Part shown: one piece after another, positions 3,670 to 17,892 of the stretch
Layout: each line of letters starts with the position of its first letter
How positions within the stretch are numbered: position 1 is the stretch's first letter
Origin: a virus
Virus record (IMG/VR): IMGVR_UViG_3300028581_000288
Location: 1 to 21,173 of that record
Direction: 5' to 3' (one strand)
Length of the DNA stretch: 21,173 nucleotides
The notes under the pieces: model-generated
What the model saw: the letters and a program-made list of their open reading frames with translations, nothing else
The model's database searches: none
What the model was told of the DNA's origin: nothing
Made by a program: the position numbers and the translations under genes

Positions 3670-3829
3670 CTTCTTTAGACATCATATCTTGCATGAACGC
3701 TGAACTCTTGTTTACGAAAATGCTGTCACCTGGTTCTGCTTGCTCCTTTGGTTTAGCTTGCGGAGCTTTCTTTTTTCTATCATATGGAGGAGGCGGCATT
3801 ACCACCTTTTCTTTTATGACGTCTTCCAT
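3665..3829 (-). CDS. Small late protein of 54 residues, unknown
   Basis: A short reading frame that starts at an ATG overlapping the preceding stop (TAATG). The product has a Pro-rich patch (VVMPPPPYDRKKK), a Lys/Gln/Pro linker (APQAKPKEQAEPGDS) and an amphipathic end (IFVNKSSAFMQDMMSKEE). No membrane segment, signal or catalytic motif is seen. It fills exactly the gap between two well-supported genes, and the coupling argues that it is real. Its place at the end of the cluster of putative head-internal proteins suggests a small virion or assembly protein, but this is inference. Confidence 0.65.
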   Translation of the reverse strand: MEDVIKEKVVMPPPPYDRKKKAPQAKPKEQAEPGDSIFVNKSSAFMQDMMSKEE

Positions 3830-4218
3830 TATTTGTTTGCTGTTGCCATTTTATGCACAGCCATAAAATTACTATGAGATTGTGCAATATGTTTATGAAG
3901 CTCATTTCTAGCCTCTGGCTTTAACTTTGACAGCGCATCGTTAACTGCTTTAGCTTGATGAGAATGGACGAATTGTGAACCAGATTTAAACTTCACATCA
4001 GCTCCACCTTTCATTTTATATCCTTCGCGCCCGGCTTTTACTTCACCAGATCCAATTGACTCAGCTTTTTTAAGCTGTACATGGATATGCTGATCGGGCT
4101 CTTCTCCAGAATCCTCACCACCATACTCATGCTCATCATCGTCTGACTTTTTAGCAGCGGGAGGATTCTTACGAGGGCGGCCTCTTCCTTCATCAAGCAA
4201 CTCTTTTAATGTTTTCAT
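3829..4218 (-). CDS. Late phage protein with T4-type capsid-targeting-like N-terminus
   Basis: I start this gene at 4218, where AAGGAG lies 6 bases upstream; the frame is open further 5' but that part lies over the preceding gene. The 129-residue product begins MKTLKELLDEG, which resembles T4 internal-protein capsid-targeting peptides (MKTYQEFIAE) and has an LxE site (L8-D9-E10). It continues with a basic GRPRKNPPAAKK segment, an acidic stretch (SDDDEHEYGGEDSGEE), HIHVQLKKAESIG, and a His-rich C-terminal helix (NELHKHIAQSHSNFMAVHKM). Similar GRPRK-type proteins occur, by recall, in marine T4-like phages without known function. Packaging in the head after prohead proteolysis is my inference. 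It overlaps the 54-residue gene by TAATG. Confidence 0.68.
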   Translation of the reverse strand: MKTLKELLDEGRGRPRKNPPAAKKSDDDEHEYGGEDSGEEPDQHIHVQLKKAESIGSGEVKAGREGYKMKGGADVKFKSGSQFVHSHQAKAVNDALSKLKPEARNELHKHIAQSHSNFMAVHKMATANK

Positions 4219-4228
4219 TCTTCTCTCC

Positions 4229-4876
4229 TTAATGCTTATGGTGCTTGGCTTCGAGAATTTCAAGTTCTGTTGTAGGAACTTTTTTCTCAATACCGTGTTC
4301 AAACATAATATCGTACCAAGCAATAGAGCCGTCTTCTGCAGGATCGGCATGCTGGGTTGTAAGTGTTTTACCTTCACCAAGTTTGGCATGTTTAACATGA
4401 ACCGCACATGAATGCTGTCCCGGAGTATCTTTCTCTTCTCTACGAGTAGTTTGATATGTTGTAGAGCCATACGTAGCGTTAGGGTTCATTGGATTAGAAC
4501 CGGACATAGCGCGCTTGATTGTGTCCCAGAATCCAGCTTTAAGAACTTTCTTACCAGCTTTAACTTCTTCACCCATTGGCATGGTTGGAGAGGTAGGAGT
4601 AGGTGCTGATGGTTTTTTTGGAGTAATAACGATTGGCTCAGAAAGATAGCCACCTTTCTTCTTTGCTCTCATAAGCTTGAAATCATGAGCATCAATTTTT
4701 CCATTTTTATTATGGTCAATTTTATGCTGATTGCCTACTAATTTTTCTGTTACTGCTTTCTCTTCCAGAGGAAGATATTTGTCGTTCTGTGCTTCTTGAA
4801 CTGTACGAGCTTTCTCATTGTTATTCATAACAGTTTGTACTGAGTCAATAAGGCTTTTTGGGATGTTATTAATCAT
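4229..4876 (-). CDS. Late phage protein with a single EF-hand-like loop
   Basis: A 215-residue protein. Residues 54-65 (DHNKNGKIDAHD) form a calcium-loop-like motif: Asp, Asn, Asn at positions 1, 3, 5, Gly at 6, Ile at 8 and Asp at 12, flanked by LVGNQHKI and FKLMRAKKK. Only one such motif is present, as in dockerin- or calerythrin-type loops that need a partner. A Pro/Thr linker follows (PKKPSAPTPTSPTMP), then a KDTPGQ motif at 149-154 shared with the 232-residue protein in this cluster, and an acidic C-terminal module (WYDIMFEHGIEKKVPTTELE) ending in His/Lys. AGGAG precedes the ATG by 6 bases. Calcium binding is a prediction from the loop only; packaging in the virion is inferred from neighbours. 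Confidence 0.65.
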   Translation of the reverse strand: MINNIPKSLIDSVQTVMNNNEKARTVQEAQNDKYLPLEEKAVTEKLVGNQHKIDHNKNGKIDAHDFKLMRAKKKGGYLSEPIVITPKKPSAPTPTSPTMPMGEEVKAGKKVLKAGFWDTIKRAMSGSNPMNPNATYGSTTYQTTRREEKDTPGQHSCAVHVKHAKLGEGKTLTTQHADPAEDGSIAWYDIMFEHGIEKKVPTTELEILEAKHHKH

Positions 4877-4885
4877 TTGAGTCTC

Positions 4886-5548
4886 CTAGTCTTCGTCTAT
4901 GATTTTGTACTTGCGTTGAATTTTTAATCCTCTTGTAACTTTTAAATGATCGTTGTCTAAATCTCTGTCGGGAGGCTCGGCGGTAGCGTCGTAAGGTTTG
5001 CTTGTAAACCTTCTTACCTTCTCGATCTCCATTCTGTCAGCAGGTACTTCTAGACGAGGAACATCTTCTACGTGTTTGCGAATATCTTCTACGTGCTGAT
5101 CTACATAATCGTGCTCTTTTTCAAGATTCATTTTCTTGGCAAAAAATTTAATTTGTTTTGCAAGCAGCTCTGCATCCTGTATGTCTTGAGGTACGGCACG
5201 CTCTTTTGCTTTAACTGTTTTATGAATACCAAATAATTTATCATGTAGTATTACAGACTTTTCAGCCATATTAGCATCTACGTTATCTGGTAAATTTTGC
5301 CCGTATAATTTTTGTGCACTTGGTGACATTTCAAAATGCTGAGTCCTATAGGTTCCAGCGGCAACTTGATCACGCTGATCTTTCTCAACATTCTCTCTAC
5401 CCGATGGTCTAATCTCTACTCCGGTCATAGCTTTTTCACCTAGCATAATTCTTTTAGCCATATCGTAAAGCGACTTATGAGACTCGCCTATTGCGTTACC
5501 TCTTAGAACATCAAGTACTATAGAATTAAGGCTTGTATATTTCATCAT
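4886..5548 (-). CDS. Hypothetical late phage protein, 220 residues
   Basis: I do not recognise this family with confidence. The protein begins MMKYTSLNSIVLDVLRGNAI and has an IxE site (IGES) near residue 20. The middle part is charged and helical (KSLYDMAKRIMLGEKAMTG; QDAELLAKQIKFFAKKMNLE). The C-terminal third is acidic and Pro-poor (HVEDIRKHVEDVPRLEVPAD, then DRDLDNDHLK). No membrane segment, signal or enzyme motif is seen. The ATG overlaps the Dps stop (ATGA). Its start-side sequence and its place between Dps and the EF-hand-like gene fit a packaged or assembly protein, which remains an inference. Confidence 0.6.
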   Translation of the reverse strand: MMKYTSLNSIVLDVLRGNAIGESHKSLYDMAKRIMLGEKAMTGVEIRPSGRENVEKDQRDQVAAGTYRTQHFEMSPSAQKLYGQNLPDNVDANMAEKSVILHDKLFGIHKTVKAKERAVPQDIQDAELLAKQIKFFAKKMNLEKEHDYVDQHVEDIRKHVEDVPRLEVPADRMEIEKVRRFTSKPYDATAEPPDRDLDNDHLKVTRGLKIQRKYKIIDED

Positions 5549-5985
5549 GCACCTGCCGTTATTGATCTGATCATCCAGGCATGCTTTTCATGGGCCTGTA
5601 TACGATCTTGTAAGTAATTAGATATGCCGTACTGCTTTAGTTCTTCAGCTTTTTCATACGCTTTAATTAAAGAGCTCTTTACTGTCTGATTGTCGTTGTA
5701 AAGAGCATTGAACATAATAACAGTTGACGGAACGGACTCGGCGTCTTGTACTTGAGATAGTTCTTTGTATCGTCCAAGCGAGCCTGGTGCCACTTCATTA
5801 ATCGTTCTTATTAGTTCAGCAATGTTATCAACTGACCCATATACCTCTTCATACAAATCACCGAGAAAGGAATGATATTGAGGGAAGTTTTCTCCTACAA
5901 CATTCCAATGATAGAACTGGGCTTTTAAATAAAAAGCAAAAGAGTTCGCTAAAGATATTTTGAGTAGTTGTTTTAATTCATCCAT
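5545..5985 (-). CDS. Dps-like ferritin (DNA protection / ferroxidase)
   Basis: A 146-residue four-helix ferritin-like protein of the Dps family. Counting from the ATG at 5985, His26, His38, Asp53 and Glu57 have the spacing (12, 15, 4) of the four main ferroxidase ligands of E. coli Dps (His51, His63, Asp78, Glu82). The surrounding FYHWNVVGENFPQYH and YGSVDNIAELIRTI are typical. Dps shells oxidise and store iron, use peroxide, and may coat DNA; this copy has no Lys-rich N-terminal tail. A GTG at 5994 would add three residues, but the ATG has better spacing to AAGG. It follows the 88-residue gene by 2 bases and is surrounded by putative head-internal proteins, so it may protect packaged DNA; that is inference. 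Confidence 0.85.
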   Translation of the reverse strand: MDELKQLLKISLANSFAFYLKAQFYHWNVVGENFPQYHSFLGDLYEEVYGSVDNIAELIRTINEVAPGSLGRYKELSQVQDAESVPSTVIMFNALYNDNQTVKSSLIKAYEKAEELKQYGISNYLQDRIQAHEKHAWMIRSITAGA

Positions 5986-5987
5986 AA

Positions 5988-6254
5988 TTACCACGCCTTA
6001 CAAGACCAATATCTCGCTTTAGTTTTTGGACCGGGATCATCACAATTATGTCTTGCTCTAAAACTTCTACGTCTAGCAGGAATATGTTTTTTAATGGTCA
6101 TATTCTTATCACCAAAATTAACTTTAACAACATTGCCTGCTGCATTCTTAACATACACCTTAGACTTCTTAACGTCCCCGGCCATAGGTTTATTAAGGGG
6201 TACTTCTCTACCCTGGTGCGTTGCCTCTTCAAAATATTCTTTAAATTTTAACAT
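5988..6254 (-). CDS. DUF5872-like small basic phage protein
   Basis: An 88-residue basic protein. The pattern GREVPLNKPM, then KVYVKNAAGNVVKVNFGDKN, then FRARHNCDDPG and TKARYWSCK matches a family I recall as DUF5872 (RxSFxARHxC ... YWSC). The conserved His and two Cys could bind a metal or form a disulfide. Function is unknown. The protein begins MLKFKEYFEEA, which resembles the short amphipathic capsid-targeting starts of T4 internal proteins, although the residue before EE is Phe rather than Leu or Ile. It is coupled by TAATG to the gene before it. Its high charge and placement suggest a DNA-associated virion protein, as inference. Confidence 0.7.
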   Translation of the reverse strand: MLKFKEYFEEATHQGREVPLNKPMAGDVKKSKVYVKNAAGNVVKVNFGDKNMTIKKHIPARRRSFRARHNCDDPGPKTKARYWSCKAW

Positions 6255-6952
6255 TATTTACCTTTATGCATGTTAATGTACCAATGGGCAAGTTGCTTTT
6301 GTCTGGGTGAAGCCGAATCAGACGATCTTATTTTTTTAAGTTGAGCAATAGTCTTACCTTTTAATCCGTGTCTAGACATATCGCCTTTATCTTCTGGATT
6401 CTTACCATCCATAAAATTCTCTTCTTGCTGTCTACGTTCCATCTCAGCAATAACAGAAGGATGATGGGCAAATGCACTTCTTGCATGTATGCCAAGATCG
6501 GCAGCAGTATACATTACCCCTAACCCTACTGGGCGATCAATAACAAAGTTCTCATTTAAGCTTTCCTTAACAGATTGTCCAGGAGTATCTTTTTTATATT
6601 TTTTCGTTAGCTTATCTGTTCCCCAATCCCCAGCACCGCCTGTTTCTTTTATTGCTTCTACTTTAGATGCAACAGCTTTACCTACACCTTTTGACTTATA
6701 AAATTTTATTGCACGCTCCATAGCTGCTTCATTAGAGTCAGCCTGTACCTTTAATTTACGTTCAATACGAGCTTGTACGCCTGAGGTTAAAGGATCATGC
6801 ATATGCACTGTTACAACATGAGTATGTTTTAGAGGAGCCTTTTCCTCTTTAATACCCGGTAGCCGTTTTAAAGCAACAGAGTTATTTTCCGGAGCTTTAA
6901 AATTCTCCGGATCTCTACCTATCAACGATTTAAGTTTTTGTAACGTTATCAT
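6254..6952 (-). CDS. Modular late phage protein sharing a domain with the 1172-residue protein
   Basis: A 232-residue protein. Residues 44-99 (VVTVHMHDPLTSGVQARIER, then KVQADSNEAAMERAIKFYKS) are similar to residues 669-727 of the neighbouring giant protein, so the two share a small alpha/beta module. Residues 117-126 carry KKYKKDTPGQ, a motif also seen in the EF-hand-like protein. The C-terminal part has FVIDRPVGLGVMYTAADLGI and SASPRQKQLAHWYINMHKGK; the latter is a recurrent ending in T4-like phage proteins, by recall. No signal or membrane segment is present. The start overlaps the giant gene's stop by 4 bases. Function is unknown; a packaged or scaffold-associated role is inferred. Confidence 0.65.
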   Translation of the reverse strand: MITLQKLKSLIGRDPENFKAPENNSVALKRLPGIKEEKAPLKHTHVVTVHMHDPLTSGVQARIERKLKVQADSNEAAMERAIKFYKSKGVGKAVASKVEAIKETGGAGDWGTDKLTKKYKKDTPGQSVKESLNENFVIDRPVGLGVMYTAADLGIHARSAFAHHPSVIAEMERRQQEENFMDGKNPEDKGDMSRHGLKGKTIAQLKKIRSSDSASPRQKQLAHWYINMHKGK

Positions 6953-9900
6953 TTTCTCTTAGCGGCTAGGTAGGCGGCTATTGCCATCTGTCTACGCTTT
7001 TCTTTCGACTTACCTTGAAATTGTGGAGCATCAGACTTTTTAAAGTCACTTACGTATTCACCAGCACCCATCGATGGTTTCAATTTTTCTTCTAACTCAA
7101 CTTCTTCTTTAGCTAAACGATCAATAGCTTTAGCTGCGCCCATTTCACGTGATTGTGCTTTCATTTTTACTTGACGTCCCAATCGTGCGAGCGCGGCTTT
7201 TGTATTTGAGCTACGTTTTATTCTGCTTAAAGCTTCATACTCTTTTCCTGTACCTTGCTTTAAACGAGCATCGGTTACTGCTTTCTTTGCATAAGAAGCA
7301 AGAGTAGGTTTAGAGAGCTCTTCAATCTCTTCAACTTCTTCTGAATATTTCTTTTTCAAATAACTAACAACTTTTCGTTCGTATTCACTCTTAGGTGCTT
7401 TAGGTACACTGGTCTTTGCTTTATTCAGAATTTTTTTGTGGGTAGGGTCGACTTCTTCTTTAGTTAAACGGTCGACCGCTTTTGCAACATTGTCACTACG
7501 CTTCCATGATTTTTGCTTATGTTTACTCGACAATCCATAATAAGCATCTCTCGTACTAGGTTTTCTTGATGTCATTGCTTTGTGATCAAAATCTTTACTA
7601 ATCATAGAATTAATTCTAGCATTAGTTGATGCTTTCTTTACATATGAACCAAGAGTAGATTTAGATAATTCGTCTAGATTTTCTTCATTTTTCATAGCAG
7701 CCTTACGACGGTCTATTTCTTTTTGTTGTGCTTCAATTTCTTTTTGAAGTTTTTTGGCTTCGTCTCCATGCTCTTTTGCAGCTGCACCTAATGTGCGGCC
7801 AGAAATACTTTTAAATCTAGCATTAATTCTACCGTAGGCAGAAGTTGCTTCATCAAAATGATGATAGCCAACGGTGGTCTTCTTAGCAGTACTTGAACCG
7901 GTGTTATGATGAACCAAATGTACTTGATCACCTTCACGATGAGCATGAACTTGACGACCAGTCTCATCTTTGAAAGTGGTCTTCATACCCGGTCTTAGAT
8001 TCTTAATAGCAGCCTGGTGTTCAGGATGTAAAGGATAAGAAGTAGAAGATCCATCATGTACTGTAACCATTTTACCCCAGGAGTAATTTTTCTTCTCTAC
8101 CTTAACCGCTTCGTTCATAATAGCCTCTTCTCTAACTGCTTTTTTTTGATTAAGATTCTTCATTGCAGCGCGTGCAAGATGTCTGGCTCTTGACATAGGT
8201 GTATGTACTGCACCAGATTTGTCTTTAACATTGCCGGCAACTTTTCTACCACCTTCAAAAGGAGGAGTATCTGGTTTGGTCTCTTCTACAATGCCAATAT
8301 GATTGGCATCGTGAATTTTATATCCTTGTTTTTTGTAATGATGTTTTGCTAGTTCAACGGCGTCGCTTTCACTCTTAGCACTTATTCTAACTTTCTTTTC
8401 CATCTTTTCTTTACGTTTAGATACCATAGTATGCTGGGGATCCGAAACAGTTACTGACACTCTATGTTTAAGTTCTGGTTCTGATTTAGTAGATCCTGCT
8501 CTTGAAGCTGATGCTCTGGCTGCCATTGCAATTGCAGCGTCGCTTCTTTCTTTACTATTACTTTCATTAATTCCAGCTTTCTGTCTCCACTGCTGGCCAT
8601 GTTTTTGAATAAGTCTTTTATGGGCAGCTTTTAATGACATAGCAGCTGCTGGGGCCATGTTAGGAGTTTCATCGCTTAATGCACGGTGAATTTTTTGAGC
8701 TTCAGCTTTTTCTTTGTCAGACATTTCTACTGCCTCGCCAAAACTGGAAGCAAATCTTTTAAATGTTCCTAATACACTCGTTGATTTAGGAGGGGCTACT
8801 TTACCCAATGTACCTGTTTTAGCTGTTGTTGTTTTAGCAGCAGGTTGATCGGAGGGGGAGGTATATTCATTAGGTGAGCGAGCTGTTTTCTTAGCACTTA
8901 ATCCCACGCGCTTGATATAATCACCTCTTGTAATCTGACCAGATTGCCATGCTTTGCGATGCGCCTCTACGTCAGCTGGTTTAACTGAATAGTAAGCCTC
9001 ATTAGTTGTCTCTTCTGGTACACAATTAGGTACTTGTCTGCCGTTTTTCATTTTAGTTCCTACTGGTTTATAGCCTTTCCAGCAAGGGTTGTCCTTAGGA
9101 TCTTTTAATCCCTCTGCTAGCCTGGCGCACTGGGCGTTAATAGAAATAAACGCTGCCTGCTCTCTTGTTTGTTCTTCTAATTCTTGAGCACCAAGATAGG
9201 CATCGCGATACATTTCAAACATTTGTACTAACTCTATTTTATACTTCTCTGATTTTTTCTCTAATGCTTTAAAATTATTTTCACTGATGTAAACGTCTTT
9301 TTCTGCCATCTCAACAAATAGATTAAGTAAGGGGTCATGCTCATAATGTTGTATAACAGGACCCGACGCTTTAACCCTTGTTGATTTGCCAAGCTGTTTG
9401 GCAGTAAAGCGCTGTACTTCGGCTTGTTTAATTCTAGGCATTAACCTTGCAGCAATAAACTTAATAAGTTTTACTTTAGGGTCAATCTGTCTATCGATAT
9501 TAATTTTATCTGATGGGCCTAGCTGATGATAGGAAGAACCTCTACGGCCGGCAATTCTTCTTCTTAAGATGTCTTTTGCTTGTTTACGAGCACGGCGAGT
9601 AAGCTGGACTTGACCGGCTAGCCTTTTGGCGGCCATTGCACGCTTGACTTTAAGTACTGGCTCTAATCTTCTCATTTGAGTAGCACGCTGTCTTCTTTGC
9701 TGAAGAGTAAGAACGCGCTCTTCTAATTCTGTTTCTTCTACACCCTCTCCAACCGTTCTAATATGATTGGCGATTTCATCGGCATGGGGATGTAAGGCTT
9801 TTGGAAGACCAGATTTAAATTGTTTCATTTCTCCAGCTCTTGCATGGGCGCGAAGCTTAGTACCTGACATACCTTCTGCTCCTTCGGCATCTGGATCTCT

Positions 9901-10467
9901 TTCTCCAGCTGACACAAATTTAATGGAATCAAAGTTAAAGAATCCATGCTTACCTTCTTTACCGTTGTATTTTTCTAACTTATCTTTGTATTCGTTAATT
10001 CGATCGCTTCCAGCGACGATAACGAGATGTTTGTTTCCAGCAGCATGGAGTTTCGATGCAGCATGAAAGATGGTTGGCTCGGACTTAGAAGAGCCATGGA
10101 CCTCCGTGCCTTTACCGGCTACTTTTTTAAGGTATCCAATTTTCTTAGACTGCGGGAGAGGGTCTTTAGATGTATTTTCAGAATGGCTGGCAAAAATATG
10201 AGCCGAACCACTATGCTCATCAGCGGTGCTTTTTACTTTATTAATTAGTTTCTCGTGGCCTACTGTTGGCGGATTATATCGCCCGAAAGCCATGACGGCT
10301 GTAGAATTCTCAGATTCTTCTAAATTAGAGGTTTTTGGATCTTGAGGATTTACGTTAATGGCATCCAAAGGCTTGCCGGTAACGGATCTACCCTTTGGTG
10401 CTTTAATGTCTTTTTCCGAATTGTTTTTCTTAGCACCTAGTGCTAATTGTTTTTCATTATTATCCAT
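6949..10467 (-). CDS. Giant modular protein with N-terminal nucleotidylyltransferase domain
   Basis: A 1172-residue, mostly basic mosaic. Residues 55-240 form an adenylyl/cytidylyltransferase-like domain: FGRYNPPTVGH with the TxGH motif (68-71), a VIVAGSD segment (149-154) and SGTKLR (201-206), the equivalent of the ISxTxxR site; NMN or a related substrate is possible. Residues 250-355 are an Arg/Lys-rich helical module (LTLQQRRQRATQMRR). Residues 455-485 hold NPCWKGYKPVGTKMKNGRQV; 667-727 a V-x-V-x-DP module shared with the next protein; about 797-871 a beta-rich, His-rich module; 931-1006 and 1049-1123 two copies of an ELSK...DRLxKEEV repeat; 1131-1172 a common ending (AGEYVSDFKKSDAPQF, then MAIAAYLAAKRK). 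LxE or IxE sites occur near module borders. A late promoter lies upstream. Probably packaged in the head, perhaps cleaved; this is inferred. Confidence 0.75.
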   Translation of the reverse strand: MDNNEKQLALGAKKNNSEKDIKAPKGRSVTGKPLDAINVNPQDPKTSNLEESENSTAVMAFGRYNPPTVGHEKLINKVKSTADEHSGSAHIFASHSENTSKDPLPQSKKIGYLKKVAGKGTEVHGSSKSEPTIFHAASKLHAAGNKHLVIVAGSDRINEYKDKLEKYNGKEGKHGFFNFDSIKFVSAGERDPDAEGAEGMSGTKLRAHARAGEMKQFKSGLPKALHPHADEIANHIRTVGEGVEETELEERVLTLQQRRQRATQMRRLEPVLKVKRAMAAKRLAGQVQLTRRARKQAKDILRRRIAGRRGSSYHQLGPSDKINIDRQIDPKVKLIKFIAARLMPRIKQAEVQRFTAKQLGKSTRVKASGPVIQHYEHDPLLNLFVEMAEKDVYISENNFKALEKKSEKYKIELVQMFEMYRDAYLGAQELEEQTREQAAFISINAQCARLAEGLKDPKDNPCWKGYKPVGTKMKNGRQVPNCVPEETTNEAYYSVKPADVEAHRKAWQSGQITRGDYIKRVGLSAKKTARSPNEYTSPSDQPAAKTTTAKTGTLGKVAPPKSTSVLGTFKRFASSFGEAVEMSDKEKAEAQKIHRALSDETPNMAPAAAMSLKAAHKRLIQKHGQQWRQKAGINESNSKERSDAAIAMAARASASRAGSTKSEPELKHRVSVTVSDPQHTMVSKRKEKMEKKVRISAKSESDAVELAKHHYKKQGYKIHDANHIGIVEETKPDTPPFEGGRKVAGNVKDKSGAVHTPMSRARHLARAAMKNLNQKKAVREEAIMNEAVKVEKKNYSWGKMVTVHDGSSTSYPLHPEHQAAIKNLRPGMKTTFKDETGRQVHAHREGDQVHLVHHNTGSSTAKKTTVGYHHFDEATSAYGRINARFKSISGRTLGAAAKEHGDEAKKLQKEIEAQQKEIDRRKAAMKNEENLDELSKSTLGSYVKKASTNARINSMISKDFDHKAMTSRKPSTRDAYYGLSSKHKQKSWKRSDNVAKAVDRLTKEEVDPTHKKILNKAKTSVPKAPKSEYERKVVSYLKKKYSEEVEEIEELSKPTLASYAKKAVTDARLKQGTGKEYEALSRIKRSSNTKAALARLGRQVKMKAQSREMGAAKAIDRLAKEEVELEEKLKPSMGAGEYVSDFKKSDAPQFQGKSKEKRRQMAIAAYLAAKRK

Positions 10468-10507: not shown

Positions 10508-10515
10508 TATTTATA
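10508..10515 (-). promoter_or_regulatory. Putative T4-type late promoter (TATAAATA)
   Basis: A perfect TATAAATA on the minus strand in the 63-base gap between the 437-residue structural gene and the giant mosaic gene. It lies 40 bases before the ATG. This is the best late promoter in the window because it is intergenic and exact. Confidence 0.65.
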
Positions 10516-10530
10516 AAAAATAAAATTACG

Positions 10531-11844
10531 TTATCTCGTTATCTCTTCCCAGTCCATTGATGCGAAGATGTCAGCACCAGCAGTCTGTGTTGCAGCACAT
10601 AAAGTTAATTCAAACGGGACTCCAGTCAATCCGTTTCTTTCCAGCTGAAACTTAAACAACGCTTCTTTAAGAATATCAATTGATGTTCTACTCTGATTTG
10701 TTGCAGAAGTAAATCCTGATGCCAGTATCCTTCCCCCGGTAATAGTTCCCCCATCTATCTTATATTCCACTGCAGAACTGTCTCCAGCACTAACCCAAGT
10801 ACCCCCTGATGTTGTCCCTGATGCTCTAACCTGCCAGTTGTATACAGCATTGTTAGTGATACCAAGCAAAGATAACGCAGTCAGTATGACAATTGCATCA
10901 AGTCTATCTGGGCTTGTTTTTAATCTTAGCGATATGAGAGTGTAGTATGTACTTACATCAGTCAGATCTATTGGAGTTGCTACGGGAGTCTGTACTGCTT
11001 GCTGAGACCCATACAGCTCATATCCCCCTTCAGAGATAACTGTAGAACATATTTGTTTGAGTGTACTTGATGAAGCAGTTGTTCCTGTGTTTTTAATTTC
11101 ATATCGTATTGGCAGATTTGCTGTCGTCATATATGGAACTGTGTTCCTATTATCATTATGAAATACATGCGCAATAAGCATCTTACCGTCAACTACAAAA
11201 CCACATCTTAAATCACCTACTCCTAACCATTCAATATCAAACCATAAAATGTTTGTTTTCGAAACATCAAGCCCTGAGGTATGCGCAGGCTCCGATCCTT
11301 GTGCAGATAGCCCAGTACCATCAAATTTATCCACATTCCAATCAGCTTGTGCTACTCGAGTCTCAACCACTGCTCCAGATGTATAGGTTCTTAGCACAAA
11401 GTAATTTGTTGTACCATTATTTTCTAAATATACACCATTCTGCGCTCCAAAGTATCCTATACGCTGTCTTAAATTTGGTTTAGGCGTACTCATTGCAAAA
11501 GTATTAAGCACTAAAAGAGACTTTCCAGGCTGATACGAAAATACTTTAGTGGTCTCTCTAATTACCTCAGTATTAGCAGAAGCATCTACGTTTAAGTTAA
11601 TAGTAGATTGATTGGTAACAAAAGCGTATGTGCCTCCTGAAGTATTAGATGTTGACCATAATCCATTATCTAAAAAACGATGTGAGCTATCAAACAGTGT
11701 TACCGGTTGAGATATTCTCAGACGACCGAATGCATCGGTAAGAGTGCCAGAAGGAGATAGTCTATCAGACAACATAAAGATTTCAAAACGGGTAGAGACC
11801 TGTTTTGAATCAATTTTATTTTGATCTAATCTAAACTGTGCCAT
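10531..11844 (-). CDS. Virion structural (tail-fibre or surface) protein of T4-like phages
   Basis: A 437-residue beta-rich protein. Recognisable segments are DAFGRLRISQPVTLFDSSHR (38-57), LRQRIGYFGAQNGVYLENNG, TNILWFDIEWLGVGDLRCGF, FHNDNRNTVPYMTTANLPIR and LKQICSTVISEGGYELYG. From memory these mark a large family of structural proteins in marine T4-like and other aquatic phages; the lectin-like core suggests a surface or fibre role. No signal or membrane segment. The start is coupled to the preceding gene by TAATG with a GAGAGAG ribosome site. The gene ends in a gap that holds the late promoter of the giant gene. Confidence 0.72.
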   Translation of the reverse strand: MAQFRLDQNKIDSKQVSTRFEIFMLSDRLSPSGTLTDAFGRLRISQPVTLFDSSHRFLDNGLWSTSNTSGGTYAFVTNQSTINLNVDASANTEVIRETTKVFSYQPGKSLLVLNTFAMSTPKPNLRQRIGYFGAQNGVYLENNGTTNYFVLRTYTSGAVVETRVAQADWNVDKFDGTGLSAQGSEPAHTSGLDVSKTNILWFDIEWLGVGDLRCGFVVDGKMLIAHVFHNDNRNTVPYMTTANLPIRYEIKNTGTTASSSTLKQICSTVISEGGYELYGSQQAVQTPVATPIDLTDVSTYYTLISLRLKTSPDRLDAIVILTALSLLGITNNAVYNWQVRASGTTSGGTWVSAGDSSAVEYKIDGGTITGGRILASGFTSATNQSRTSIDILKEALFKFQLERNGLTGVPFELTLCAATQTAGADIFASMDWEEITR

Positions 11845-12998
11845 TATCTCTCTCTACTTAAAAAGTTAGCTCTACTAAATTCGGATCTATCAACAAGCTT
11901 GGTTGGTCTATTATTACGTACAGACACAAACCCTTCTGGTTTTGCTTTTTGACCAGCAATTGAATGCTCATACTTTGTGTTGCGGGAGAGAGCGTTTACT
12001 AATACGTTTTTAGCTTGCTGTAAATGATGATGGATATCTAAAGCTGACTTAAAGGAACTCTTACTAGAACTAATTTGCGCAAGGTGGGATTTCATTTCAT
12101 TGTTCTTACGCTCAATAGCTGATCCTGTCTTAAGTTTAGAAATGTCTCTAACATACCTACCCTGTAAATGACTTTTAAATCCTTCAACTGACGGCTTAGA
12201 TTGGTCTCTGACGGTAGCATTAATGTAGGTTTTCAGATGTTCAGTATAGGGATGTACAGCTGTATGAAAGTCTTTGTGTGCACCGTTAAACGCTTTTGTA
12301 GCACTGTTTAAATGAGCGTTAAACTGTTCTTTCTCTTTTTCTGAGTACTTGTTCTTGGAGAAATCGTGATTAGGAGAGATGAGATGGACGTCGTCATGGC
12401 TTCCAAAATGACTAGTATCAGCATTGTACTGCGCTTTCATGTCATCAAGAGTATTACCTTTATAAGCAGTATGAACAACTACTCCAAACTTGGCATGTTT
12501 AACCTTATTACCTTCCTCTGAATCTTTCTTTGTAGAGTAGGTAATAGTATTAGGTTTAAAATGGTACTTCTCTCCATCATCAATTACGTCTTGCTTTGAG
12601 TACATAACATCACCCTGATATACTCCCTCTTTAGGGGCAACTTTTTTAAGGTGCTTTAATGCGTCGTTAAGCTTACTTACTAACCCAGGAGCATGTCCAT
12701 GATTCTGCTCTATGTCCTCAGGTGTGTAATTTAACTTTGGTGTTTTATTAAACGCTGACTTAGAAGCTACAAAAAACTTTCCAGATACGGGATGATGTCC
12801 AAACACTATGGATGGTGAACCGTCGTACTTTGTTGTAACGGTAGTTTTATTATGCTTACCTGAAAGAAGGTCATGAACGTCTTTTAAGTTATGAAAGGCA
12901 TGAGCAAAGCCTTTATCACCATCGTTTACTACATGGTCTTCGAGATGCTCTAAATGAGTAAGTTTATTTTCGTCGTTAACGGCTTCAGATAGTATCAT
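11844..12998 (-). CDS. Ligase-fold nucleotidyltransferase-like protein (DUF6267-type)
   Basis: A 384-residue protein with the motif series of covalent nucleotidyltransferases. Motif I is KYDGSPS, with the putative nucleotide-accepting Lys57. A motif III-like segment is VYQGDVMY (127-133). A motif IV-like segment is HAKFGVVVHTAYKG (168-181). The C-terminal KPEGFVSVR (353-361) followed by TKLVDRSEF fits motif V (EGhVhK...K). This is the core of DNA/RNA ligases and capping enzymes; I recall the phage family as DUF6267. A long His/Lys-rich helical insert (about 190-340) separates motifs IV and V, which is unusual for known ligases. The N-terminus MILSEAVNDE contains an LxE site. Substrate unknown; ligase or nucleotidylation activity is a prediction. 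ATGA overlap with the preceding gene. Confidence 0.68.
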   Translation of the reverse strand: MILSEAVNDENKLTHLEHLEDHVVNDGDKGFAHAFHNLKDVHDLLSGKHNKTTVTTKYDGSPSIVFGHHPVSGKFFVASKSAFNKTPKLNYTPEDIEQNHGHAPGLVSKLNDALKHLKKVAPKEGVYQGDVMYSKQDVIDDGEKYHFKPNTITYSTKKDSEEGNKVKHAKFGVVVHTAYKGNTLDDMKAQYNADTSHFGSHDDVHLISPNHDFSKNKYSEKEKEQFNAHLNSATKAFNGAHKDFHTAVHPYTEHLKTYINATVRDQSKPSVEGFKSHLQGRYVRDISKLKTGSAIERKNNEMKSHLAQISSSKSSFKSALDIHHHLQQAKNVLVNALSRNTKYEHSIAGQKAKPEGFVSVRNNRPTKLVDRSEFSRANFLSRER

Positions 12999-15861: not shown

Positions 15862-17892
15862 TTAGAACGTTTTTACAAATTTAATAGCTACTACGTTATC
15901 AGTTACACCTGCCTGACCTCCCACATTCATCTGATGCGTTAGGTTCACAGCTACTTGAGTATCTGTTTTAATGCTAGCTGTATAACCAAGCACTAAGTCA
16001 ATCTGCCGGGAAGTAGCTTTGAGATTAACATTGTCTGACTGTGAGATCGGATTAGCGATGAAATCACCATTACCGTCGTCTACGTAATCATATCCTGTTA
16101 CGGCTGTTACAGTAGCCGATCCTCTCTTAATAGCAACCGGCCCTTGCAGACTCAGGCTAACGGTATCACTGCTCTTATCAGATAAGAATACGTTACTTCT
16201 ACTCAATCCAACCTTCCAAGTATCGCTGTAGATAGTAGGACTGAGGTTAATAATACTACCGTCGTACTTACTTGTACTAGTAACACCCAAGACATAGTTA
16301 GCATTAAAGCTTACCTTTTCAGTTAAAGGCTTAACTACGCCTCCGCCAACCCAGGTTGTACGAGTATCACCAAAACCGGTTACCCCAGTTGCATAGTTAT
16401 TCAAAAACCCTGACTGTTCGGACATAGTTCCAAACTGAAGGGAAGTTGTGTAATCTGCTTTTACTGACTTAACTTCAAACCCCATACCGTTATCGGTCTT
16501 AGTTGCTGCCATTGTAGTGTTACGATCTAAGCTAGTAACTACTTCCTGATAGTTAGTAGGAGTCAAAGCAAGATATGGGTTACCATATAATGAACTAGTA
16601 GGCGAGGAACTATTAAACGACTTAGTCAGGTCAATTGTAAAATTACGATCGTACTCATCTGCTACTTGAACGTTCTGTAGAACCGAGCTACGCTTAAGTG
16701 AGGTAGACGTTGATTTAGTAAGTGCTGTTGATGTAGTAAGAACTTTTCCAGTCGTACGTCCACTACCTAGAGGTGCAGTAGTATAGACCAATGCGCCTTG
16801 AGGTCGAGTAGCCTTATCAAAGTTAACTAACCCGTTACCATAAACTTCGTCAACACCCTTGGCTCCTAAGTCAGTTGCAGTATTAATTACTAAGTTAACC
16901 ATTTGATTGGCTTTAAGCTGGGGCCAGGCTTGTTTAATAAGAGCCATGCCGCCTGACACATACGCTGTTGAAACACTAGTTCCGGAAGCGTAACCTACTC
17001 GATTACCTGCAGCTTGTTGATTGGCAATTGCTACTGCTACATTCTCTCCAGGCGCGACTACGAAAAAGTCTTTGACCTGATAGATGTCATTACATTTAGT
17101 ACCTGATAAACTAGTACAAATGTGACCGGCTCGGTTACTAAAAGAACTAATTTGATTCCTAGAGTTAACTGAACCGACGATAATTGCTCGTCCTCCTAAT
17201 ACTAGGTTGCCATTGCTATCGGTCTTAGTTGCGAATGCGGCAGGAAATGCAGAGTATGCAAGCCCTTCATTACCTGACGCTGCTACAAGCACACCATTTT
17301 TATTAGAGGTGGCGTATGAGTTAAGGTCTGATAAAGAATATCCATTCATACTACCGTAGCTAGATGTAGTACGGTAGATACCTTCTCCCACATGTGTAGT
17401 CCTGTCTCTAAAGCTAGTAGCAAAGGGAGAGGCTAGACTAATGTTAACGATGTGAGCACCTTTAGTGTCAGCAATCTTTAGCGCGTCTGTGATTCCTTTA
17501 AAAGTAATACCCGTTCCTTTAGCCCCGCCTTTACTAATTTGAAGTAGCATTAATTTAGCATCTGGCGCAACACCTATCGTACCCTTACCATCAGACTGAC
17601 CGGCAATAATCGAAGCCATTTGTGTACCGTGTGATCCCCAGTACGTGGTCGTGTTTATCGAACTAAGAACACCTACCGATGACACGGCACCTTTAATATC
17701 AGTATGATTAAAGTCAAAACCATCATCAATAATAGCTACTAACGCACCCTTACCGGTAATGCCTCGACTCCATGCCGACGTAACTCCGGTTTGAGTCAGA
17801 ACAGTATTGCGTTGAGTTGTTTCAAGGTTCTGTGCTTGTACCGAAGTAAGAGAGGCACTAACTGCTACTGCTAGAAGAGTCTTCTTAATCAT
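15862..17892 (-). CDS. Secreted subtilisin-like serine protease with C-terminal barrel-like region
   Basis: A 676-residue S8-family peptidase. Residues 1-20 are a Sec signal (MIKKTLLAVAVSASLTSVQA). The catalytic triad is Asp56 (AIIDDGFD), His88 (GSHGTQMAS) and Ser306 (SGTSVSTAYVSG), with oxyanion Asn208 (AASGNEG). Two cysteines (C259, C267) may form a disulfide. The catalytic domain ends near residue 360. A Ser/Thr-rich linker follows, then about 270 residues of alternating beta strands (WVGGGVVKPLTEKVSFNANY) ending in Phe, like an outer-membrane barrel of autotransporter proteases such as SphB1 or NalP. Alternatively the C-terminal part is a secreted beta domain. The gene overlaps the MazG-like gene by ATGA with AAGGA upstream, so it is a true part of the phage operon. 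A secreted bacterial-type protease is unusual for a phage. Confidence 0.82.
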   Translation of the reverse strand: MIKKTLLAVAVSASLTSVQAQNLETTQRNTVLTQTGVTSAWSRGITGKGALVAIIDDGFDFNHTDIKGAVSSVGVLSSINTTTYWGSHGTQMASIIAGQSDGKGTIGVAPDAKLMLLQISKGGAKGTGITFKGITDALKIADTKGAHIVNISLASPFATSFRDRTTHVGEGIYRTTSSYGSMNGYSLSDLNSYATSNKNGVLVAASGNEGLAYSAFPAAFATKTDSNGNLVLGGRAIIVGSVNSRNQISSFSNRAGHICTSLSGTKCNDIYQVKDFFVVAPGENVAVAIANQQAAGNRVGYASGTSVSTAYVSGGMALIKQAWPQLKANQMVNLVINTATDLGAKGVDEVYGNGLVNFDKATRPQGALVYTTAPLGSGRTTGKVLTTSTALTKSTSTSLKRSSVLQNVQVADEYDRNFTIDLTKSFNSSSPTSSLYGNPYLALTPTNYQEVVTSLDRNTTMAATKTDNGMGFEVKSVKADYTTSLQFGTMSEQSGFLNNYATGVTGFGDTRTTWVGGGVVKPLTEKVSFNANYVLGVTSTSKYDGSIINLSPTIYSDTWKVGLSRSNVFLSDKSSDTVSLSLQGPVAIKRGSATVTAVTGYDYVDDGNGDFIANPISQSDNVNLKATSRQIDLVLGYTASIKTDTQVAVNLTHQMNVGGQAGVTDNVVAIKFVKTF

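Follow-up and report, generated by a model that had tools for sequence, protein, structure and literature searches.

The T4 prohead protease gp21 cleaves after the Glu of (L/I)xE. Among described systems, the T4 internal proteins IPI, IPII and IPIII, together with Alt, which have a capsid-targeting sequence (CTS) and undergo gp21 processing, resemble the locus studied here in their basic modules, their [LI]xE processing site and the capsid association of homologues. For IPIII, residues 4 and 7 have been identified as determinants of targeting and residues 8 and 10 of processing, and the same work documents the Glu at the gp21 processing site and the loss of IPIII processing when position 10 is Asp (PMC9026906); the N-terminus of ipII and ipIII, as we read it from the T4 genome, is MKTYQEFIAEA. 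Polyvalent proteins (Iyer et al. 2017, PMC5512222), such as P1 DarB/DdrB, are likewise large, mosaic, multi-domain, fast-reshuffling and probably virion-borne effectors, and the inner-head proteins of phiKZ and SPN3US, some of which are ejected, are cut by a gp21-related S77-like protease (gp245 in SPN3US), sometimes at several sites. Finally, "cytidyltransferase" or NMNAT-like proteins homologous to the nucleotidylyltransferase described below were detected by mass spectrometry in virions of the cyanophages S-CREM2, S-SZBM1, S-SCSM1 and S-CBWM1.

In the window, by which we mean the whole 21,173-base IMG/VR virus record, ORF reading verified the 1172-aa frame listed by the first-pass annotation (6949..10467, minus strand, ATG start), and the TxGH/SGTKLR nucleotidylyltransferase head proposed there was borne out by the motifs TVGH and SGTKLR, a phrog_3041/395 match and a predicted HIGH-superfamily fold. 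The features of the gene and its neighbours are given below, with a slash in a sequence marking the candidate seam.

6949..10467 (-), whole modular protein, 1172 aa; closest relative L001, best segment 97% identical
10508..10515 (-), T4-late-promoter-like octamer TATAAATA upstream of the ATG at 10467
10315..10467 (-), putative propeptide, residues 1-51, with LEE 49-51 (10315-10323) at its end; relatives have a T4-like targeting sequence there
9718..10314 (-), predicted HIGH-superfamily nucleotidylyltransferase, residues 52-250, with LEE 248-250 at 9718-9726; phrog_3041/395, AlphaFold2, VIA-align
9112..9717 (-), very basic helical module, residues 251-452, net charge +21, with LAE 450-452 (9112-9120) at its end; phrog_23027
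8998..9111 (-), NPCW module GLKDPKDNPCWKGYKPVGTKxKNG, residues 453-490; [LIVM]xE/GL in 22/24 non-redundant instances of the subtype
8428..8997 (-), stretch with little conservation and few homologues, residues 491-680
8284..8415 (-), HRVSVTVSDP module, residues 685-728, with IVE 726-728 (8284-8292) at its end; weak DpnD/PcfM similarity
8110..8283 (-), PPF..VKDKSGAVHTPMSRARHLARxAM module, residues 729-786, with MNE 784-786 (8110-8118) at its end
7843..8109 (-), AVKVEKKNYSWGKMVTVHDG module, residues 787-875; relatives at most 75% identical, with LDE, VDE or LEE before the module in several
7363..7677 (-), LDE 931-933 and first LSKSTLGSYVKKA module (934-1035); also in Caulobacter phage Cr30 and IMG/VR contigs
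7096..7326 (-), IEE 1048-1050 and second LSKPTLASYAKKA module (1051-1124)
6952..7095 (-), LEE 1125-1127 and C-terminal DAPQFQGKSKEKRRQMAIAA module (1128-1172); 256 IMG/VR relatives, site conserved in 62/76
11844..12998 (-), DUF6267 neighbour, start MILSE/A..., RNA-ligase-like; among relatives, some begin with a T4-like targeting sequence and some are nucleotidylyltransferase fusions
5988..6254 (-), 88-aa protein with T4-CTS-like start MLKFKEYFEE/ATHQG
3829..4218 (-), 129-aa protein with CTS-like start MKTLKELLDE/GRGRP, from an internal ATG of ORF 3829-4470

About 1.8 T4-late-promoter-like octamers are expected by chance in the window, and the one upstream of the giant gene is only suggestive of such a promoter. 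Three other minus-strand genes of the window deserve mention. A Ferritin/Dps-like protein (5545-5994; PF00210, 2.8e-23), which could be packaged with the DNA, lies among the clustered genes for likely internal head proteins; collagen-like GxKGDKG repeats mark a probable fibre or surface protein (1669-2355); and a 676-aa protein (15862-17892), which begins like a signal peptide and matches a phrog "protease", looks by sequence like a subtilisin-like protease whose C-terminal part may be autotransporter-like, which is unusual for a T4-like phage.

The head of the giant protein matched the phrog_3041/395 "cytidyltransferase" families (3e-57 and 5e-34) and fell below the cut-off for PF01467. An AlphaFold2 model of residues 52-246, built with 41 sequences (pLDDT 92), had phosphopantetheine adenylyltransferase (PPAT) as its best structural match by VIA-align (Z 15.4, rmsd 2.9, 153 aligned), in a tie with NMN adenylyltransferase (Z 14.5). 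Solved structures gave no match to the single sequence and weak PPAT/NMNAT matches to a profile, and the NCBIfam NMNAT equivalogs did not match the window protein and scored the relative L002 far below cut-off. With its [HT]xGH and SxTxxR motifs, invariant G11, P15, G19, H20 and S150, catalytic motifs that are invariant or nearly so, and a Rossmann-like predicted fold, we assign the head to the HIGH-superfamily nucleotidylyltransferases. Of the earlier suggestion of an enzyme of NAD or related metabolism, the fold upholds the nucleotidylyltransferase part; as to substrate, the "NAD metabolism" label of the cyanophage papers is a possible one for this candidate enzyme, because PPAT and NMNAT tie by Z. 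Two genes upstream, the DUF6267 protein retains KxDG, EGxV and KxVxR, and its predicted fold matched Naegleria RNA ligase (Z 9.2; plain Foldseek was weak). Fusion of DUF6267 to the nucleotidylyltransferase, seen in S-PM2 and phrog_455, makes it probable that they act together, and RNA or nucleotide repair on entry would be our guess at their role.

Pfam and NCBIfam recognized in the whole protein only the nucleotidylyltransferase and the weak DpnD/PcfM similarity (HRVSVTVSDP module against PF14207, E=0.0016, below the Pfam cut-off). No peptidase domain was matched in the chain by Pfam, PHROGs or NCBIfam, and Pfam and NCBIfam found no ARTs, peptidases or kinases; in lacking these class-typical catalytic domains and an embedded protease the protein differs from polyvalent proteins, and its seams fit the T4 prohead protease acting in trans. 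It is a single chain of distinct domains, within the range of 2-15, that is mosaic between relatives: its modules recur in different order and in different genes. L001 encodes the same protein with additional modules, each behind an EEVEQIDE-type linker (at L001:11061-11200 this giant gene is split by a frame-shifting direct repeat roughly 23 bases long, either a genuine split or an artefact of assembly). In L007 these modules are reordered over a nucleotidylyltransferase-headed 1077-aa protein and a separate 557-aa protein, and a basic C-terminal segment similar to residues 251-452 follows LVE in an L007 protein. The gene next to ours (6254-6952) has a segment that by eye resembles the HRVSVTVSDP module, a homologue of which is present in phage BUCT-ZZ01, and a 682-aa protein of Caulobacter phage Cr30 (host CB15; L300:2762-4810), annotated as hypothetical, consists of LxE-bounded repeats (16 [LI]xE vs 7.6 expected). 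Four modules, used to scan IMG/VR, brought up large sets of other combinations, and the loci that we fetched hold 227 modular proteins.

All six LxE or IxE triplets named by the first-pass annotation are where it placed them (LEE 49-51, LEE 248-250, LAE 450-452, LDE 931-933, IEE 1048-1050 and LEE 1125-1127), and five others were left out of its list, at 157, 394, 430, 633 and 726. Because the 1172-aa protein contains 11 [LI]xE triplets where shuffled versions average 9.3 (p=0.32), their number is uninformative, and the informative part is their placement. In BLAST searches against ORFs of related loci, alignment starts clustered at 450 (19 hits), 1118-1127, 929, 728, 776 and 42-50, alignment ends clustered at 244-250 and 486-492, and most of these borders match listed sites or IVE 726-728 and MNE 784-786. 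Five of the 11 sites lie at most 6 residues from a border, compared with 1.1 under rotation (p=0.013, an optimistic value in that the borders were chosen from the same BLAST peaks); the claim that the triplets sit near module borders therefore held for their placement, with the count at chance level and the original list selective. Over all modular proteins, an unbiased BLAST-border test gave a modest excess only (0.43 vs 0.34), with its peak at the alignment start (304 vs about 160 per 5 residues).

Conservation was scored as the Glu plus a hydrophobic P3 in distinct aligned relatives. At the border sites it was 31/34 for 931, 39/48 for 1048, 62/76 for 1125, 45/63 for 450, 18/32 for 49 and 10/30 for 248; at sites off borders it was 2/8 for 394, 2/22 for 430 and 1/3 for 633. 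In these alignments we grade sites 450, 931, 1048 and 1125 as highly conserved, 49 as fair and 248 as weak; five of the six named triplets are thus conserved in relatives, and 248-250 weakly. The INE at 157-159, within the folded enzyme, was kept in 38/61, presumably for structural reasons.

A sharper rule emerged when we lined up the five module types, with NPCW split into two subtypes, across relatives. A Glu stands directly N-terminal of the module (P1) in 70 of 73 non-redundant instances, and 63 of these 70 have L, I, V, M or F at P3, where about 20 are expected from the background of 0.286, the share of the remaining Glu in these proteins that have such a residue at that place. By type, the preceding motif was [ILV]xE in 11/11 LSK modules, [LIVM]xE/G in 22/24 of the main and 3/5 of the minor NPCW subtype (with Glu in 5/5 of the latter), [LIF]xE in 12/13 DAPQF modules, [VM]xE in 12/17 EF-hand-like modules and [VLI]xE in 3/3 KMADLP modules. 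The resulting seam motif, [LIVMF]xE, is at the level of sequence the T4 gp21 cleavage rule. In some small modules the Glu could also play a structural part, because their N-terminal residues belong to the conserved portion.

We consider it likely that the protein is a cargo polyprotein of a T4-type head, targeted to the prohead and cut in trans at its module borders by gp21. The alternative that fares best is a polyvalent protein packaged and injected as one chain, with seams that are uncut relics of ancestral single-module genes, or with only the first one cut. Multi-domain polyvalent phage proteins are known, some, such as the N4 virion RNA polymerase, are packaged without processing, and the S-PM2 DUF6267-nucleotidylyltransferase fusion has no seam at its joint. 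Relics would be expected to erode; instead, P3 and P1 persist at module seams next to a variable P2 and an otherwise variable linker, and sites 450, 931, 1048 and 1125 are conserved, which makes a one-chain protein unlikely in our view.

A cargo polyprotein cut by gp21 would be expected to enter the prohead, and the N-termini of relatives point in that direction. Homologues of the nucleotidylyltransferase begin with MKNFSSFLTE/A, MRFRQFIIE/A, MDFKQFITE/A or MKHFKEYLKE/S, the first of these starts being that of S-CREM2 gp154 (MKNFSSFLTE); L002 starts with MDFKQFITE/APEKTAAFAFGRF, and the start of L006, MKTYKQFVTE, is nearly identical to the MKTYQEFIAE of T4. As in the T4 internal proteins, an [LIVM]xE site directly precedes the predicted mature domain. 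In a first comparison, CTS-like starts did not differ between "modular" and "other" ORFs, because the "other" set is itself rich in probable internal proteins, the nucleotidylyltransferase and DUF6267 among them, and the background was then taken from internal Met residues within proteins. By a strict pattern, 16 of 33 non-redundant nucleotidylyltransferase homologues have a CTS-like start compared with 18 of 8934 internal Met (0.2%), as do 9 of 21 DUF6267 homologues. The window protein itself has no canonical CTS at its N-terminus (MDNNEKQLALGAKK..., residues 1-51), a difference from the T4 internal proteins; its close relatives L002, L004 and L225 do carry an N-terminal targeting sequence, and in L002 and L004 (about 70% identical) the site of that sequence aligns with LEE 49-51. 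Internal CTS-like copies also occur right before modules (KSYRDFVTE/IKMADLP and ISFSDFINE/IKMADLP), a pattern that in-frame joining of single internal-protein genes would produce.

Mass spectrometry of particles purified on CsCl, as published, places homologues in the virion. Nucleotidylyltransferase homologues were found in purified virions as S-CREM2 gp154, S-SZBM1_140 and S-SCSM1 ORF91, with S-CBWM1 cited likewise, making four cyanophages in all (PMC10665884, PMC9146016, PMC9602691). The virions of two of these phages are also reported to contain NPCW-type modular proteins: S-CREM2 gp160 carries NLEE/KKNCWPGYEKKGTK and EISE/GKKDACYH, and S-SZBM1_139 carries MTE/GLKQARKNVG..CWKGYKATGTK. The S-CREM2 authors caution that such virion proteins could be co-purified contaminants, and we found no report of a cleaved N-terminus in the literature searched. 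Residues 17-70 of gp160 (L301:12343-13236) match the phrog_696 "major head protein" family, apparently the stretch immediately C-terminal to the gp23 cleavage site.

These virion reports bear on a second alternative, in which the protein is a prohead core or scaffold component like T4 gp22, gp67 and gp68, whose gp21 peptides mostly leave the head, and its modules fill or organise the core with no action in the host. The modules are basic and low-complexity, and T4 core proteins are typically cleaved at multiple sites; against this stand an enzyme head with preserved catalytic motifs that is found in mature virions of four cyanophages, as retained cargo would be, and a separate annotated scaffolding protein adjoining the major capsid protein in S-CREM2. 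We therefore regard a scaffold role as improbable.

Returning to processing of a cargo polyprotein by gp21, we looked for the protease itself. The window's own record gave no gp21 match, which is uninformative in a 21-kb genome fragment. Relatives do have such a protease: all 11 T4-like isolates tested that carry the nucleotidylyltransferase or modules, including Cr30, S-CREM2, S-SZBM1, DLP6, Melnitz, HTVC008M and P-SSM2, encode gp21 (Peptidase_S77). Among 20 large contigs with modules or nucleotidylyltransferase, gp21 (PF03420) and gp23 (PF07068) occur together in 14, and the remaining 6 are without both. In gp23 N-termini of module-bearing contigs, LLE/A, LNE/A, LME/T, LAE/S and the like are found at or near the expected site, and we infer these [LF]xE positions to be cut sites. 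The archaeal tailed viruses HSTV-1, HRTV-4 and HRTV-29 (L298, L311 and L312) have only the NPCW module in common with these phages, and none of the three has an S77 match; there TTSKQ, LLDE or LLDD stands before the module and the Glu is not conserved, which makes the haloviruses a small but apt negative control for the seam rule. In HSTV-1 the module sits in a protein annotated as head maturation protease. A mosaic protein of unrelated function, with LxE triplets as chance or helix-capping features, fits the [LI]xE count not exceeding shuffles but is very improbable given a P3-x-P1 rule common to unrelated modules and not conserved in the S77-less haloviruses.

Computation thus established the modular make-up, the seam motif and its conservation, the fold of the head and gp21 in relatives, and for the first-pass proposal of a polyprotein cut in the prohead to release injected proteins we can add five of six sites kept, modules following [LIVMF]xE, S77 in relatives and homologues in virions, with cleavage, gp21 in this phage and injection standing as predictions. 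On the cargo-polyprotein reading, the protein would be made late and enter the prohead core, where a gp21-type (S77) protease would cut the chain at module borders, behind the Glu of [LIVM]xE, probably in that order of events. Cleavage would release the nucleotidylyltransferase and several small, mostly basic modules, which would stay with the packaged DNA and probably be injected as putative effectors. Such a protein probably arose by in-frame stacking of single internal-protein genes, the targeting-and-cleavage signal of each being kept as a seam. T4 internal proteins, in contrast, have one cargo domain and one N-terminal site, whereas here there are several seams and many modules per chain; the multiple cuts described for phiKZ and SPN3US lie mostly in propeptides, whereas here the candidate sites lie between distinct modules; and the S-CREM2 and S-SZBM1 proteins have 286 or 362 aa, compared with the head of a 1172-aa polyprotein. 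The available parts of the cyanophage virion papers mention neither a targeting sequence nor cleavage seams, and the open-licence literature that we searched held no description of T4-like phage polyproteins with LxE seams; the elements themselves (CTS, gp21, virion effectors) are known, and their arrangement here is one that we did not find described there.

More broadly, we consider it about as likely as not that non-enteric T4-like phages use a general "cargo assembly line". Interchangeable internal-protein modules, each with its own gp21 seam, would follow one another in frame after a single targeting signal; a single chain would load many effectors at a fixed ratio, the prohead protease would separate them, and recombination at seams would add new modules. 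The cargo-polyprotein reading links three separate literatures, on T4 capsid targeting, on polyvalent proteins and on the unexplained nucleotidylyltransferases of cyanophage virions. If true, it would supply a simple sequence rule for finding injected proteins, and in T4-like phages of marine and fresh waters many proteins now called "hypothetical" would become a readable, seam-delimited list of packaged effectors, on a scale indicated by the 256 IMG/VR stretches for one module alone and the 227 modular proteins in the fetched loci.
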